Below are positions 2,630 to 13,463 of a stretch of DNA of 35,489 bases, one piece after another; positions within the stretch are counted from its first letter, which is position 1, and each line of letters begins with the position of its first letter. A model generated the notes under the pieces. That model was not told the DNA's origin. It did no database searches and saw only the letters and a list, made by a program, of their open reading frames with translations. Both the position numbers and the translations under genes were made by a program. Origin of the DNA: a bacterium (lineage in GTDB: Bacteria > UBP14 > UBA6098); contig QNEE01000004.1 of the NCBI GenBank assembly GCA_003645085.1, positions 1 through 35,489 on the forward strand. Reading direction: 5' to 3'.

Positions 2630-3547
2630 CTATTTAGTGAGGACGATTTTCTTCGTTACTCTTGTATCCCCTATACAGGCTTTGACTAGATAGACGCCCG
2701 ACGGTAACGAGTTGTTTGGAGTCCATATCAGGGGCGTCGGGCCCCGCGCTGAATCCGGACTGCGATTCTCTATATATCCACCGGTTTTATCGTCGGATTC
2801 AGCGCGGGGCAACGGCAGGTCGGCCACCAGGCGGCCGGTTATATCGAAGATTTGCAGTCCGACCTGCCGTGGCGACCGTCCGGTCGCACCGACGCCCCGA
2901 CAATCGATTTTAACCGCCGAATTAAACGGGTTCGGATAAGCATCTAACGTCAATCGGTATGGTTGTTCTACGGGAGTATTTTCTATCGACATAACTGTAT
3001 TAGTCGAAACGCCGATGTCGTCAAACTTACATTCGCGTGTGAAAGAACCGGTCCCGAAATTAGCCTCGAGATAGAAAAAGACCTGCGATTCCCCGGCGGC
3101 GTGTTCAGTAAAATCGATATTCATCGGTTGCCAGTCTCTTGTGGAGTCGGGCCCCATCGAATAGGTTACCGTGCCGGCGTATCCCGATGGTTCTATCCAG
3201 ACATAAAAGCGCGCGAAATCGTAATCGCCCGGGTCGGCGGTGTTCCACATCCGGAAGGATAAAATTACCGAATCGGCGGTCGAGCAATCGATTAACGGAG
3301 TGCGGATGAAGTTTCCCCACCAGTCCGGCCATGACATCGGGCCAGAACCAATCGCGGAATCGCTCTCGAAACCGGGGCCGTAAACGAACATAGAATCGTT
3401 ATACGTAGGCGCAAACCAGTATCCGCTGGGGCCTGATGTTCCCCATACAATTGTTACATCGTCCTCGAAACCTTCCGGACCGAACAACCAGTCGGCGAAA
3501 ACCGCCGATACAAGTGAAACCAAAGCAAAGACAACAGGAAGCCGCAT
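2630..3547 (-). CDS. Exported protein with type IX-type C-terminal sorting domain
   Basis: 305 residues. The signal peptide is about residues 1-18 (MRLPVVFALVSLVSAVFA). Residues 20-185 look like a beta-rich, Trp/Tyr/Asp-rich carbohydrate-binding or MAM-like domain with RTPLIDCS and FDDIGV strands; I do not recognise a defined family. A short linker leads to YPNPFNSAVKIDC (204-216), the start of a sorting domain ending in SGVYLV and IVLTK. Such proteins cross the outer membrane by type IX secretion and lose this domain. The domain carries Arg/Pro/Gly-rich inserts (217-230 and 246-274) encoded by palindromic DNA also present in the next gene upstream. The gene lies 11 bases downstream of the 810-residue FG-GAP protein and is probably co-transcribed with it. 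Confidence 0.75.
   Translation of the reverse strand: MRLPVVFALVSLVSAVFADWLFGPEGFEDDVTIVWGTSGPSGYWFAPTYNDSMFVYGPGFESDSAIGSGPMSWPDWWGNFIRTPLIDCSTADSVILSFRMWNTADPGDYDFARFYVWIEPSGYAGTVTYSMGPDSTRDWQPMNIDFTEHAAGESQVFFYLEANFGTGSFTRECKFDDIGVSTNTVMSIENTPVEQPYRLTLDAYPNPFNSAVKIDCRGVGATGRSPRQVGLQIFDITGRLVADLPLPRAESDDKTGGYIENRSPDSARGPTPLIWTPNNSLPSGVYLVKACIGDTRVTKKIVLTK
2723..2938 (-). repeat. 216-bp near-identical repeat, copy 1 (palindrome-rich sorting-domain segment)
   Basis: It differs from 3652-3867 at two of 216 positions (one Tyr/His change, one silent), while both flanks diverge at once. It encodes the region from about YPNPFN to PLIW of the sorting domain. It holds nested perfect inverted repeats: GGGGCGTCGG 2731-2740 with 2889-2898, GCCCCGCGCTGAATCCG 2741-2757 with 2794-2810, ACGGCAGGTCGG 2812-2823 with 2859-2870, and GCGACCG 2872-2878 with 2881-2887. 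Confidence 0.95.
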
Positions 3548-3558
3548 AGTTTCTCTTT

Positions 3559-5991
3559 CTATTTAATATAGACTACTCGTCTATAAGCTGTTTTTCCGCC
3601 GGAAGCTATATGAACGAGGTATACCCCCGAGCCGAGAGATTCATCCGGTCGCCATATCAGGGGCGTCGGGCCCCGCGCTGAATCCGGACTGCGATTCTCT
3701 ATATGTCCACCGGTTTTATCGTCGGATTCAGCGCGGGGCAACGGCAGGTCGGCCACCAGGCGGCCGGTTATGTCGAAGATTTGCAGTCCGACCTGCCGTG
3801 GCGACCGTCCGGTCGCACCGACGCCCCGACAATCGATTTTAACCGCCGAATTAAACGGGTTCGGATAGACCGTTATACTCAATTTCTCCGGCTTATTAGA
3901 GCTTTCGCCGATATAATGTGTGCCCTCGACAAGATTATAAGTTGCGTTAGCGGCGACACTATAAAGCGTCTCGATTGTCCCTGAAGTCCATTCGATAATA
4001 ACGGTATCCATAACCGCCGCGGAGCCGAGACCGAAATGCAGGACAGGCTCAGATTGAGAAGCGACACCGCCGTATTGCGTGCCGACCTCACGCATGAGCC
4101 AGAGCGTATCCGCGAGAACTCTAACTCTGGTGCCTATTCCGAGTTTGTTGCCGTCGGCGCCCTCGCAACGGAAACGTGCCCAGTTATTGGTCGTTCCCAT
4201 AATAAGTGAATACTGGTTGTAATATATATCTTTCCTGCGGCATGTTTCGATAACGAGGTCGATATCGCCGTCGAGGTCGATATCCGCGAAACCGGCGGCG
4301 TCACAGCCATTGATGAATAGTCCCGCTTCTTCGGTAACGTCGCTAAAGGTGCCGTCGGCATTGTTGCGATAGAGCGTCGCGTAGGACCCCGGAGCCTTTC
4401 CAGTAATAAAAAGGTCGAGCCAGCCGTCGTTATCGTAATCGAAAAATAGCGGGATTGACTGCACGGTGCAAAATCCGATTCCGCGGGCGGCGCGTTCGTC
4501 GAACATATAATAATCGGGTGGACCGAGATTGGTGTAGAACATCGAATTATCCGCAGCAGGGATAGCCGGGTCCGAGACATCGTTGGCGACAAAAAGGTCC
4601 AGGTCGCCGTCGTTATCGAAATCGCCGAAACAGGCGCCGAGACTACGGCCGTAAATACCCCCGCCGTCGTTGATACCGTCCACGCCGTAGGCGTAAGCCA
4701 TCTCCATAAAAGACCCGCCAGTATTCAGCCATAGGTAGTTAGGGTGGTAATGCGAGTTAGCGACGTAGATATCGGGATAGCCGTCGTTATTCCAATCGCC
4801 GAGAGCGATTCCGCTGCCGGAATGCGGAATAGCGAAGACTATACCCATTCCGACGAGGTTTGTAGCCTCGACAAAATAAGCGCCGTCGTTCCGGTAAAAG
4901 AGGTCGGGATAATAAGTGTATGTGGAATCCACCGGGTCCCAATATTCGGAATTTGCGACATAGAAATCCAAGTCGCCGTCGAGGTCGTAATCGAGCCAAG
5001 CCGCGGCGTCGGTGTAATACGGATTGGATAAATCGCCGGCAACGTCCGTAACATCGAAAAAAACGCTGGAACCGGAATTATTGGCGAAGAGTTTATCGGA
5101 ACCGATAGCTCCCGCCAAAAATATATCGGGGTATTCGTTTAGGTCGAAATCGCCCCAGTAGGGATAACCGATTCCAGACATACCGGTGCTCGGCACGATA
5201 GTAAAGCTGCCGCTTTCGTTGCGGAAAAGATGGGTCCCGCTAGCCAAATCCGCGTCGCCGTCATAGTCGAAATCGTAAAGTGCGACACCGCTATGGGTGG
5301 TCGAAACCGCGGCGGAATCTCTCTCGAAAAGGTATTCATCCGGGACATGATAATAGGTGCCGTATGCCCGGATAGCGTAAGTTACCGGCCATTGGGTCGT
5401 ATCTGGTGGAGACATCGGTCTGACATATCCGGAACCCGGAATATAAAGCCAACTGCGTGCCTCGACATCCTCTTTCCACGTTAGCAATAACCTCGGCCTG
5501 TTCGGATAAACAACCTCTCTGCCGACATAGCATTCCTCGAACGGCTCGAGATAGAACTTCTCCGGCAGAACGACATCGTGCCAACCGTAAGTCCCCGAAT
5601 CTACAATATCGATAAAATGCGGGACTAACTCTGCGAATCCCGGCATCCTCATCGAATCGGAAACCCAGATATGAACCTCCAAAGAGCCGGCTTCCTGAAG
5701 ATAAAAACTAACGGACGAAACCGAACAGGGATGAATTGCCTGTATTCTGAGCATTTCGCGCATCCCGGGCGATGGTGTGCTAAGATACAGACTCGGATAG
5801 CCGGTGTCGTATTCGAACCAGAACGGCTCGGTGTGTTCGAGATAATCGGTCGGTCTGAGCCTCTCTATACCGCGGTCGGGCCCGAAAACGACCGGTTCGG
5901 TTTCCAATTTGGCGCAATCGGCGGTGTTGGAAGCCGACACAACCGCTGTTGCCATAGCCAGAACGAATAAATAAAAGACCGTTTTTCTCAT
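3559..5991 (-). CDS. Exported FG-GAP/VCBS repeat and ASPIC/UnbV protein with type IX sorting domain
   Basis: 810 residues. The signal peptide is about 1-20. After an N-terminal beta-rich region there are about seven FG-GAP-type repeats, each with a Ca2+-binding-like DxDxDGxxD loop (for example DFDYDGDAD, DYDLDGDLD, DWNNDGYPD, DFDNDGDLD, DIDLDGDID), which should fold as a beta-propeller as in integrin-alpha and CRTAC1 proteins. An ASPIC/UnbV-like domain follows (NKLGIGTRVRV to IIEWTSGTIE). The C-terminal sorting domain begins with YPNPFN at 709-714 and ends with SGVYLVHIASGG. It is a predicted secreted or surface calcium-binding adhesin-like protein; its ligand is unknown. A strong ribosome site (GAGGAGGGG) precedes ATG 5991. 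Its sorting domain is nearly identical in DNA to that of the downstream gene. Confidence 0.9.
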   Translation of the reverse strand: MRKTVFYLFVLAMATAVVSASNTADCAKLETEPVVFGPDRGIERLRPTDYLEHTEPFWFEYDTGYPSLYLSTPSPGMREMLRIQAIHPCSVSSVSFYLQEAGSLEVHIWVSDSMRMPGFAELVPHFIDIVDSGTYGWHDVVLPEKFYLEPFEECYVGREVVYPNRPRLLLTWKEDVEARSWLYIPGSGYVRPMSPPDTTQWPVTYAIRAYGTYYHVPDEYLFERDSAAVSTTHSGVALYDFDYDGDADLASGTHLFRNESGSFTIVPSTGMSGIGYPYWGDFDLNEYPDIFLAGAIGSDKLFANNSGSSVFFDVTDVAGDLSNPYYTDAAAWLDYDLDGDLDFYVANSEYWDPVDSTYTYYPDLFYRNDGAYFVEATNLVGMGIVFAIPHSGSGIALGDWNNDGYPDIYVANSHYHPNYLWLNTGGSFMEMAYAYGVDGINDGGGIYGRSLGACFGDFDNDGDLDLFVANDVSDPAIPAADNSMFYTNLGPPDYYMFDERAARGIGFCTVQSIPLFFDYDNDGWLDLFITGKAPGSYATLYRNNADGTFSDVTEEAGLFINGCDAAGFADIDLDGDIDLVIETCRRKDIYYNQYSLIMGTTNNWARFRCEGADGNKLGIGTRVRVLADTLWLMREVGTQYGGVASQSEPVLHFGLGSAAVMDTVIIEWTSGTIETLYSVAANATYNLVEGTHYIGESSNKPEKLSITVYPNPFNSAVKIDCRGVGATGRSPRQVGLQIFDITGRLVADLPLPRAESDDKTGGHIENRSPDSARGPTPLIWRPDESLGSGVYLVHIASGGKTAYRRVVYIK
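3652..3867 (-). repeat. 216-bp near-identical repeat, copy 2
   Basis: Second copy of the segment at 2723-2938, offset by exactly 929 bases, with the same set of nested inverted repeats, in frame within the 810-residue gene. The two differences lie in the TATAT(A/G)TCC and GTTAT(A/G)TCG positions. Confidence 0.95.
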
Positions 5992-10287: not shown

Positions 10288-11516
10288 AACAAACCGACCC
10301 GGAGATATTCGACTCTATCCAGAAAGAACTCGAGCGGCAGCGTGATGGTCTGGAACTTATCGCCAGCGAGAATTACACGTCGGCGGCGGTTCTCGAAGCC
10401 AATGGTTGTATTATGACGAACAAATATGCGGAGGGTTACCCCGGCAGGCGCTATTATGGCGGTTGCGATTACGTCGATATAGCCGAGTCTCTTGCACGCG
10501 AACGCGCGATGGAGCTTTTCGGAGCGGAGCACGCCAATGTTCAACCGCACAGCGGCTCACAGGCCAATATGGCCGTCTATTTCGCCGAACTCGAACCCGG
10601 CGATACTATTATGGGCCTCAACCTTTCGCATGGCGGGCATCTGACGCACGGCCATCCGGTAAATTTCAGCGGTATTCTATACAATATCGTTCAATATGGT
10701 GTCGATAAAGAGTCCGAACTTCTCGATTACGACGCGGTGGCTGAAATTGCGCACAAAAACAAGCCGAAACTCATAATGACGGGTGCGAGCGCCTACCCTC
10801 GGTTCTGGGATTTCGCGAAATTCCGCGAGATAGCCGACTCGGTAGGCGCGATACTCGTCGCGGATATGGCGCATTTCGCTGGACTGGTCGCGGCGGGTTT
10901 GCATCCAAGCCCGATTCCGGACAGCCATTATGTTACGACAACAACACACAAAACGCTTCGCGGACCCCGCGGCGGAATGATACTCTGTAAAGAGGATTTC
11001 GCTAAAAAGCTCGATAAAACCGTTATGCCCGGTATGCAGGGCGGCCCGTTGATGCACGTAATCGCCGCTAAAGCGGTGTGTTTGAAAGAGGCTATGACCG
11101 ACGAATTCAAGTCTTATCAGCAGAGGGTGCTCGATAACGCGAAAGCGCTGGCGAAAGCGCTCGAGTCCGGCGGGCTGAGGCTCGTTTCCGGCGGGACGGA
11201 TAACCACCTGATTCTCGTGGATTTACGCCCGAAGGGTATCACCGGTAAAGTCGCCGAAAACGCTCTGGATAAAGCAGCGATAACGGTCAACAAAAACACG
11301 ATACCGTTCGACCCGGAAAAGCCGTTCGTTACCAGTGGTATCCGTATCGGCACGCCCGCCGTAACCACTCGTGGTATGGGAACTGCTGAAATGGAAACGA
11401 TAGGCGGTTGGATTATCGAGGCTATCGACAATGTCGAGAACGATACAAAACTCGAACAGATTAAACAGAAAGTAGTCGAGCTTTGCAATAAATTCCCGAT
11501 TTATCCGGAATTGTAG
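10275..11516 (+). CDS. glyA: Serine hydroxymethyltransferase
   Basis: 413 residues, normal length. Converts serine and tetrahydrofolate to glycine and methylene-tetrahydrofolate using PLP. Visible signatures: LIASENYTS (28-36), [22 protein letters not shown]197 and H200 in VADMAHFAG, and the PLP lysine K226 in [24 protein letters not shown] just upstream is a good ribosome site inside the end of rpiB. A small inverted repeat (TTGTAG 11511-11516 and CTACAA 11521-11526) spans the stop codon; without a T-run it is at most a weak stop signal. Confidence 0.97.
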
Positions 11517-11590
11517 GTAGCTACAAATAAGCAGAACTTACTAATATATAAGAAAGACCGGTGTGTCGGGAAATAAAAAAGGAGAAAACG

Positions 11591-11839
11591 ATGCCAGTAT
11601 TAAAAGCAGTCTATGATGAAAGGCTTACGGAGTTCCTTGAGAAACTAGGATTACTTTCTCAAATCCTAGGCGGCTCAATAAGATGCCATCAATGCGGGAA
11701 GGTTATAACTATCAAGAACTTCGGTTCTGTAAAAAGGTTAAATGGTGATTTGGTTGTTTTTTGCAATACCCCTGAGTGTATAGCCAATAGCCTTAAAGAA
11801 CCTGAGATTATAACCGATAGCCCCAAAAAGACAGACTAA
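11591..11839 (+). CDS. Small putative zinc-binding protein, first gene of an unknown two-gene cassette
   Basis: 82 residues from ATG 11591, chosen because AAAGGAG lies six bases upstream; the frame is open for ten further codons upstream without such a site. Four cysteines form a knuckle-like pair, CHQCG (CxxC) and CNTPEC (CxxxxC), separated by a basic segment, suggesting a zinc ribbon. I do not recognise the family. Its stop overlaps the next gene's ATG (TAATG), so the two proteins are probably made together. Base composition is more AT-rich than the flanking glyA. Confidence 0.65.
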   Translation: MPVLKAVYDERLTEFLEKLGLLSQILGGSIRCHQCGKVITIKNFGSVKRLNGDLVVFCNTPECIANSLKEPEIITDSPKKTD

Positions 11840-12900
11840 TGGATTGGGCTTCAATATTCGTCGGCGGAATAGTCGGTGCAATAATAGGTATAATCCTTGC
11901 GGCGGTTCTTACGAAAGTCTGGAATTTCTTTTTTGTGCGCGAATTTAGAAGCAAAGTTATCTGGGTATTAGCGAAGGTTTTTAAGACACAGACACTCGAA
12001 ACTAAAAGTATAAAAACGGACATTGAAACCTACCTTAATGAAGAAATAAAACTTTCAAATAAAAGGTCATTCGGTAACGATATACTCGTAAACGATAAAA
12101 TTAAAATCGTCTGGGTCAGGGTTGAAGCGGATGAAGGTATTTCTCTCGAAGAGGGAGAAACTATAATCCGCCTCGGCTATAATATGGATAAGACAAGGAA
12201 CTATATCGAAGCTGTTATGCGCTATTTGGATTATGGTTTTATCCCAGCTACCAAACCGTATCTCGATGAAAACCTTCGGACAGCCTTGAAACTCGAATTT
12301 ATCCATCAGGCTATGCTCGATAAAGGGGACAAGGCTTTCAAATACTATAACGAGCATTACCTTGCCCAAAAACTCGGGAACCAGCTAATCAGGGACTATA
12401 TGGATAAATCCGGGGTTATAAAACGAAAAGGGTTCTTCACCCCGGTTCTTTTAAGAGAGATAAACCTATTGGGCGGTAGATTAGCACGGGGCAGGCAAAT
12501 CAGGACGACCCAACTCGACCAAGAGATAGAAGAGTTTATTGAGTTTTTGTATGATATAGCGGACATCGACAATTATAGGAGCCAACACGGTTCCGACCCG
12601 CCATTAGCCTTTATAAATAACAACATTAAAACCGAGATAATGCTCGTAATGCGTTCAGACGCTAATGATATACAAAAGCCTGTCGATGGTGTAGGCTATT
12701 GGATGGCTCGAGGCGTTAAATCTCTTTACATAGCTGGTTTAGGCTTTAATAAGGATATCGCGATTAAGGTTTATAATAAAGGTTTTAACCGTTACAAAGC
12801 ACAATTTGGATTAATAGCGAATGGCTGTATCGATATAGAAGTCGAATTCGAAGATGGCATCCGAAAAGAAGGGAAGATTTGTCTTATAACGAGGCAATAA
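11839..12900 (+). CDS. Unknown protein with N-terminal membrane anchor
   Basis: 353 residues. Residues about 5-33 (IFVGGIVGAIIGIILAAVLT and on) form a glycine-rich transmembrane helix with a short outside end. The remainder is predicted cytoplasmic and soluble, with a charged helical region (36-85), a strand-rich part (WVRVEADEGISLEEGETIIRLGY), a helix-rich middle and a beta-rich C-terminus ending near CIDIEVEFEDGIRKEGKICL. I recognise no catalytic motif. It is coupled to the small zinc-ribbon protein by TAATG and shares its AT-rich composition, unlike the genes on either side. The pair could be an inserted accessory module; function unknown. Confidence 0.65.
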   Translation: MDWASIFVGGIVGAIIGIILAAVLTKVWNFFFVREFRSKVIWVLAKVFKTQTLETKSIKTDIETYLNEEIKLSNKRSFGNDILVNDKIKIVWVRVEADEGISLEEGETIIRLGYNMDKTRNYIEAVMRYLDYGFIPATKPYLDENLRTALKLEFIHQAMLDKGDKAFKYYNEHYLAQKLGNQLIRDYMDKSGVIKRKGFFTPVLLREINLLGGRLARGRQIRTTQLDQEIEEFIEFLYDIADIDNYRSQHGSDPPLAFINNNIKTEIMLVMRSDANDIQKPVDGVGYWMARGVKSLYIAGLGFNKDIAIKVYNKGFNRYKAQFGLIANGCIDIEVEFEDGIRKEGKICLITRQ

Positions 12901-12947
12901 ACTCCTTATCCCATGGACATTACTACGGCGATAATTTATAAAGTTAT

Positions 12948-13463
12948 ATGAAGCCCCCGGAATGGTTAGTTTCGATGTTCGAGCGTCGCGCCCTTAAACG
13001 GGCGAAAGACCTCGAATTCAGCTTCCCCGGCGCGCTGAACGCTCTCGAAAAAAGTGTGATATTGTGGCCGGCCGAGCCCGACGAAGCCGCAAAGGCAATC
13101 GCTTCGGGTATAAAAAGAGCATTGGGGAAAAAGATTAGGGCGATTCTCAGTTTTTCCGGCGAGGTTCCGTTTCCGGGAATCGAGCTTATACGGCTCGATA
13201 AGAGCGATATAGGGTTTTTAGGTTACCCGAAACGTTCAGCGGTGAGGAAGTTAGAAGCTTTCGGCGCCTCGATAGACCTGAGTCCCGAATTCGAGCTGAA
13301 CCTGTCGGTCCTACCGCTATGGGCCGATATTAAACTTCGCATAGGTAGAGACAGTTTGTTCGCCGGCAGCGCATATAATATAATAATCTCCGGGAAGACG
13401 GGTATGGAAATAGAAACGCTCTTGAATGCGAAGGAATGCGGTAGCTATGAGAAAGCAATATGA
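12948..13463 (+). CDS. Conserved-looking small protein of unknown function
   Basis: 171 residues, soluble, no signal peptide. It begins MKPPEWLVSMFERRALKRAK and contains alternating strands and helices (KKIRAILSFSGEVPFPGIELIRL, SDIGFLGYPKRSAVRKL), with LSVLPLWADIKLRIGRDSLFAGSAYNIIISG near the end. The last part resembles from memory the DUF6913-type proteins of Bacteroidota, but I cannot confirm this. Base composition returns to that of the main genome. It overlaps the following GT2 gene by 17 bases, so it is the likely first gene of the glycan locus transcript. Confidence 0.55.
   Translation: MKPPEWLVSMFERRALKRAKDLEFSFPGALNALEKSVILWPAEPDEAAKAIASGIKRALGKKIRAILSFSGEVPFPGIELIRLDKSDIGFLGYPKRSAVRKLEAFGASIDLSPEFELNLSVLPLWADIKLRIGRDSLFAGSAYNIIISGKTGMEIETLLNAKECGSYEKAI

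Follow-up and report, generated by a model that had tools for sequence, protein, structure and literature searches.

A four-way-junction palindromic repeat dispersed among bacterial genomes and residing in frame in T9SS sorting domains

Two adjoining genes in the window (the whole 35,489-nt stretch of DNA analysed) carry, within their T9SS type A sorting domains, a palindromic element with the architecture of a four-way junction (hereafter cloverleaf), and copies with the same geometry are dispersed over the genome of the window (G000) and the genomes of three members of the same family (G002, G003, and G004). We interpret the cloverleaf, with a probability of roughly 0.6, as the unit of a dispersed palindromic DNA repeat family, presumably a selfish repeat resembling REPs or Rickettsia palindromic elements (RPEs), whose arms would be kept matched by arm-to-arm copying. 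The four-way architecture is unusual for a dispersed palindromic family of this kind.

Architecture of the element in the window

The minus strand of positions 2731-2898 codes for the central part of a T9SS type A sorting domain. Four perfect inverted repeats described there by the initial annotation, with arms of 10, 17, 12, and 7 bp, were all present (2731-2740/2889-2898, 2741-2757/2794-2810, 2812-2823/2859-2870, and 2872-2878/2881-2887, respectively). The description of these repeats as nested holds for the 10-bp pair, which encloses the rest, but the remaining ones are arranged next to one another. The segment is palindromic as claimed, but instead of several palindromes it comprises a single unit of about 165 nt, a four-way junction that P1 (10 bp) closes around P2 (6-7 bp and a very small loop), P3, and P4. 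The features are as follows.

2731..2898, minus strand: cloverleaf copy 1, in frame in the sorting domain of a 305-aa protein (inverted repeats, fold, covariance model match)
2889..2898, minus strand: P1 5' arm, GGGGCGTCGG on the coding strand, partner 2731-2740, invariant in 14/14 aligned copies
2731..2740, minus strand: P1 3' arm, CCGACGCCCC on the coding strand (inverted repeat, pairing in the alignment)
2872..2887, minus strand: P2 hairpin, GCGACC-N4-GGTCGC, covarying pairs 2/6
2859..2870, minus strand: P3 5' arm, coding ACGGCAGGTCGG, partner 2812-2823, two-sided change in 7/12 modelled pairs
2824..2858, minus strand: P3 loop, 35 nt, encoding the host sorting domain's own conserved strand, LQIFDITGRLV
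2812..2823, minus strand: P3 3' arm (pairing in the copy alignment)
2794..2810, minus strand: P4 5' arm, coding GCCCCGCGCTGAATCCG, partner 2741-2757, two-sided change in 7/15 modelled pairs
2758..2793, minus strand: P4 loop, 36 nt, hypervariable among copies, within a region predicted to be disordered (AlphaFold pLDDT <50, domain residues 61-78)
2741..2757, minus strand: P4 3' arm (inverted repeat, pairing in the alignment)
3660..3827, minus strand: cloverleaf copy 2, in the sorting domain of an 810-aa FG-GAP/UnbV protein (99% identical 216-nt block, covariance model match)
2723..2938, minus strand: 216-nt block, 99% identical to 3652-3867, identity stopping abruptly at both ends
2630..3547, minus strand: host gene 1, 305 aa, C-terminal T9SS type A sorting domain (PF18962 3.8e-7, TIGR04183 6.1e-6)
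3559..5991, minus strand: host gene 2, 810 aa, FG-GAP repeats, UnbV/ASPIC, T9SS sorting domain (profile matches)

The sorting-domain assignment was confirmed for the C terminus of the 305-aa protein by PF18962 (30.7 bits) and TIGR04183 (26.1 bits), both over the cut-off of Pfam and NCBIfam, respectively. The 174-nt element had fold z-scores of -7.6 as DNA and -6.7 as RNA, with none of 200 shuffles equally stable; the RNA fold was very stable. Copy 1 matched the covariance model at 160-176 bits. As proposed earlier, the segment is shared by two sorting domains, copy 2 lying in the adjoining gene; the common 216-nt block with its abrupt ends fits a recent event of duplication or gene conversion that involved the half of the domain bearing the element.

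Copies in the window's genome and in relatives

A protein search yielded 98 sorting-domain matches in G000, and the covariance model detected 18 clear cloverleaf copies on 17 different contigs, which disposes of the possibility, raised initially, of a chance local structure with no other copies. As had been suspected, copies occur both inside and outside genes: 14 were in frame in T9SS sorting domains (including the two in the window), and the other four were a decayed copy, two extragenic copies, and one in pdxA.

G000 C8:6251 (L117:1501-1674): decayed sorting-domain copy
G000 C73:9667 and C198:1674: extragenic copies
G000 C149:3071: pdxA copy

The 14 sorting-domain copies showed 71-99% DNA identity and share ancestry, so that enrichment p-values calculated from them overstate independence. 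The P3 stem GGGCAGATTGCC was common to the extragenic copies and several sorting-domain copies, and the P3 loops of the extragenic copies differed from the sorting-domain strand. The arms had been thought to spread as such; dispersed copies do exist, but they are not fixed sequences, GCCCCGCGCTGAATCCG being one of many stem versions, and what the copies have in common is the architecture and P1. In the decayed copy, all four stems were still perfectly paired although the protein motif was mostly lost.

A second covariance model, built from 32 diverse copies, detected at least 50 loci in G002, at least about 60 in G004, and at least 9 in G003; copy counts per genome are lower bounds from model searches in which up to 150 candidates were scored per genome. 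With this model, no copies were found in G001 of the same family or in 12 other genomes of the phylum (13 genomes in all). The first model, applied to 24 genomes at a greater distance, gave only one weak match (G039), which was judged to be due to chance because of its poor fold. Nearly all copies in the relatives were extragenic, and the convincing genic ones were found only in sorting domains (G002 C17:23361, G002 C16:52991, and G003 C36:1416). The stems of these three differed, and the P3 loop or its equivalent was again located at the conserved strand.

Three orthologous sites were compared between relatives. At one intergenic site, a cloverleaf in G002 corresponded to only a small hairpin of P1 sequence in G003 (GGGGGGCGTC..GACGCCTCCC), and at another, a G002 cloverleaf corresponded to GGGGGGC..GCCCCCC in G003. 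At the third, G004 and G002 both had cloverleafs with unlike stems, that of G004 being typical of its own genome. A position can therefore outlast its stems, which turn over in step with the genome as a whole. Simple GGGGGGC/GGGGGGCGTC hairpins were seen at about 10550-13150 of locus L339 (G003:C41), where G002 carries cloverleafs; such hairpins are either remnants of a lost cloverleaf or starting points from which the larger structure grows. In G004 copies (e.g., L183, L188, and L200), the flanks beyond P1 often contained a partly conserved inverted pair, TTTTCGC../..GAAAATC, and the unit of this genome may be longer than modelled.

Paired change in stems and free variation in loops

The proportion of pair cells that were paired was 97.8% in the 14 G000 copies and 98.8% in 34 G004 copies, and it fell to 34-49% when the partners were slid by 1-3 columns (34-43% in the G000 copies). 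Pair changes were two-sided in 39 cases and one-sided in 4 among the G000 copies, and two-sided in 110 cases and one-sided in 1 among the G004 copies, although these counts tally sequences rather than independent events. Given the strong fold score, the lack of shuffles of equal stability, and the loss of pairing on sliding, the inverted repeats are not a product of chance. Identity between G004 copies was 83-99% in stems, 36-41% in loop centres, and 30% in flanks. The stem sequences of P3 and P4 varied from genome to genome, and P1 (GGGGGCGTCGGC) was conserved. Shape thus seems to be inherited more faithfully than sequence.

Slow compensatory evolution of an RNA would leave G-U pairs and mismatched intermediates. 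Because both were nearly absent, the pattern points to a change of both arms in a single event, as in template switching, although some stem variants could have arisen by replacement of the whole element instead of by arm copying. Template switching is an established source of perfect stems, which it also repairs (PMC8794818), and coding inverted repeats are rewritten by it as well (PMC8604942). Where template switching makes structured DNA and RNA, it is expected to leave perfect stems whose two sides change without intermediates, and such changes can be counted here in over a hundred copies from four genomes.

Replacement of codons in pdxA

The cloverleaf in pdxA (L120:1501-1722, corresponding to G000:C149:3071-3292) spanned 226 nt, with perfect stems, a z-score of -8.6, and nearly the same P1. 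In comparison with PdxA of G002, G004, G007, and G011, the G000 protein showed gaps of only one or two residues over the cloverleaf region. The loops coded for recognizable native residues, and the arms altered residues (e.g., GPEvlsKAL to GPETAAKAV). The stems replaced native codons rather than being inserted, and a conserved region of an enzyme was recoded into a cloverleaf with the protein length essentially unchanged. P1 partly resembled the native codons of the PGGIGPE motif, and its match in pdxA may be partly coincidental. The earlier idea of an element inserted into the domain is thus true only in that inserts flank the conserved strand; simple insertion does not describe a P3 loop that is the host strand or a pdxA whose codons were replaced.

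Origin and maintenance of the repeat

The unit consists of the conserved closing stem P1, the short P2 hairpin, and the P3 and P4 hairpins, whose stems differ between genomes. In the mechanism that we favor, it would persist in G000 mainly in two loops beside the conserved strand of the sorting domain, where extra residues may be tolerated, and would spread among sorting-domain genes when the domain undergoes gene conversion or recombination. Copying from arm to arm (replicative template switching), together with conversion between copies, would maintain the match of the arms and renew them; the stems would thus change on both sides at once, and the loops would be left to local sequence or drift. 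A bolder version, which we regard as only tentative, is that the repeat is inherited as a shape: P1 would act as a recognition stem and turn the local DNA, including host codons, into matched arms, with host sequence staying in the loops and the arms being replaced genome-wide in concert.

It is unlikely that the cloverleaf is an ordinary miniature transposon or REP, mobilized by a RAYT or another transposase and inserted as a finished unit into sorting domains as tolerant targets. High-copy, near-identical stems at unrelated sites in G004 would fit such insertion, as would the intragenic GTAG and CGTC REPs and RPE-4/RPE-6 described by Di Nocera et al. (PMC3733652). However, the P3 loop of sorting domains and both large loops of pdxA contain host sequence, which is impossible by one insertion, and the copies have stems in common, not loops. 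No target-site duplication was visible by eye in the listed flank pairs, and neither a transposition event, a dedicated enzyme, nor a linked transposase was found for the cloverleaf. RAYT-like genes exist, one or two in each genome of the family, but they include cloverleaf-free G001, and no cloverleaf was located beside the RAYT-like gene of G000; RAYT was therefore rejected as the mobilizer.

A functional structured RNA selected for its fold, acting in mRNA stability, translational pausing, or termination, is quite improbable, despite the very stable RNA fold and the strong covariation. The near absence of G-U pairs and one-sided changes is the opposite of slow compensatory RNA evolution, and the model was also matched by the antisense strand. 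Of the extragenic copies, 33 lay in tandem gaps, 16 in divergent and 10 in convergent ones, and a role as terminator was rejected for this lack of gene-orientation bias. The Rfam search of the window region returned only chance-level matches, none at the gathering score, so that no structured RNA family could be assigned, and the element is absent from G001 of the same family.

Highly improbable is an explanation by paralogy only, in which one sorting domain gained palindromes by chance and was then duplicated. The homology of the 14 copies and the 216-nt block shared by the window's copies agree with it, but the extragenic copies with unrelated P3 loops already disfavor it, as do the sorting-domain copies of G002 and G003, which occupy the same place with wholly different stems, and the copy in pdxA. 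An assembly artefact (snap-back or chimeric contigs) is scarcely credible, for although the genomes are drafts broken into 40-480 contigs and the closest relatives that bear names are MAGs, the same geometry recurs on 17 contigs of G000 and in four genomes, open reading frames are kept, and ordered loops separate the arms.

Comparison with known palindromic repeats

RPEs are palindromes that occur in frame inside many proteins and also in intergenic regions, and the likeness to them that had been suggested at the outset holds in part: the cloverleaf is read in frame (sorting domains and pdxA) and has intergenic copies. Unlike RPEs, it has almost only sorting domains as hosts, its loops hold host residues, and the pdxA copy is a replacement. 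Fungal mitochondria contain double-hairpin elements and GC clusters that look mobile and combine a conserved shape with variable sequence. In this description they resemble the cloverleaf, but they are organellar, and the double-hairpin elements have two hairpins in place of a four-way junction that is closed.

RPEs have been reported in frame in many proteins and between genes, and REPs tagged with CGTC or GTAG are, like the present element, short G+C-rich palindromes that are mostly intergenic and in some cases intragenic in frame (PMC3733652). In known CGTC units, a single 8-9 bp hairpin with a 4-5 nt loop is accompanied by a terminal CGTC tag that stays unpaired and by a short CCA-like tail (PMC3733652). 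P1 also contains CGTC, but here it lies inside the paired closing stem of a four-way junction of 125-180 nt, with arms mostly of 12-20 bp and P3 loops of about 33 nt; with CGTC within paired P1 in all aligned copies and four helices, the element was not assigned to the CGTC super-family. GTAG double hairpins are also present in G000 and its sorting domains, but the cloverleaf ends with GGGGCGTC and a RAYT-like gene also occurs in cloverleaf-free G001, and membership of the GTAG REPs/REPINs was rejected. Assignment to insertion sequences or MITEs was also rejected; P1 acts as a terminal inverted repeat, but no target duplication was visible in the flank pairs inspected by eye. In mitochondrial genes of Nematomorpha, perfect inverted repeats have arms that each code for conserved protein, and protein function and perfect stems are kept together as in pdxA (PMC6649704), but there is no dispersed family with a common closing stem. 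Hairpins made by template switching share two-sided stem changes in one event and coding changes in arms with the cloverleaf (PMC8794818, PMC8604942); the known cases are local, in contrast to the genome-wide repeat family of constant geometry found here.

The sorting domain as a habitat for palindromes

All 17 sorting-domain copies (14 of G000 and 3 of relatives) had lengths divisible by 3, which was not so elsewhere, in agreement with the initial proposal of a palindromic element read in frame. The two encoded inserts lie on either side of the conserved strand (IFDITGRL), and, as had been expected of typical sorting domains, both were lacking in aligned element-free sorting domains of the same genome. 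In the AlphaFold2 model of the domain, the beta strands had high confidence, the P4-encoded stretch (residues 61-78) had pLDDT <50, and the P2-encoded stretch was near 53; the inserts thus fall in low-confidence loops of the predicted beta domain.

The cloverleaf is not alone at these two loops, which are occupied by several unrelated palindromic families. GTAG-type palindromes were located at the same two loops of other G000 sorting domains. Double hairpins of the GTAGGGGC type had ten exact occurrences in G000, five of them within sorting domains, which make up about 1.1% of the genome, although these copies are not independent. Similar hairpins were in frame in sorting domains of the related MAGs CSMAG_3036 and Zod_Metabat.733; no cloverleaf was found in the loci read from these MAGs. 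Sorting domains in this lineage are thus hospitable to palindromic repeats in general, and they show that protein domains, here secretion-sorting signals, act as a standing habitat for several such families. The literature searched yielded nothing relevant on palindromes in T9SS sorting domains.

Double hairpins of the form GTAGGGGC..GCCCCTAC, which are three-way junctions, were observed in other G000 sorting domains at C49:7174, C62:5807, C76:1313, C78:5078, and C209:1942, and their stems varied while the arms stayed matched. Further unrelated repeat-like peptides were seen at the same loops in L045, L075, L066, L085, and L096, the peptides at those loops including RRAQPNEAISS..GDCRALRARND, VIEPVEMTGG..STSSGSG, and CHSRESGNP. 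Additionally, a very long, DNA methylase-like open frame (L102; G000:C60:3115-6267) contained tandem in-frame GRTDILVCP palindromic repeats together with a stretch matching Y1/RAYT transposase, apparently representing nested elements within one gene.
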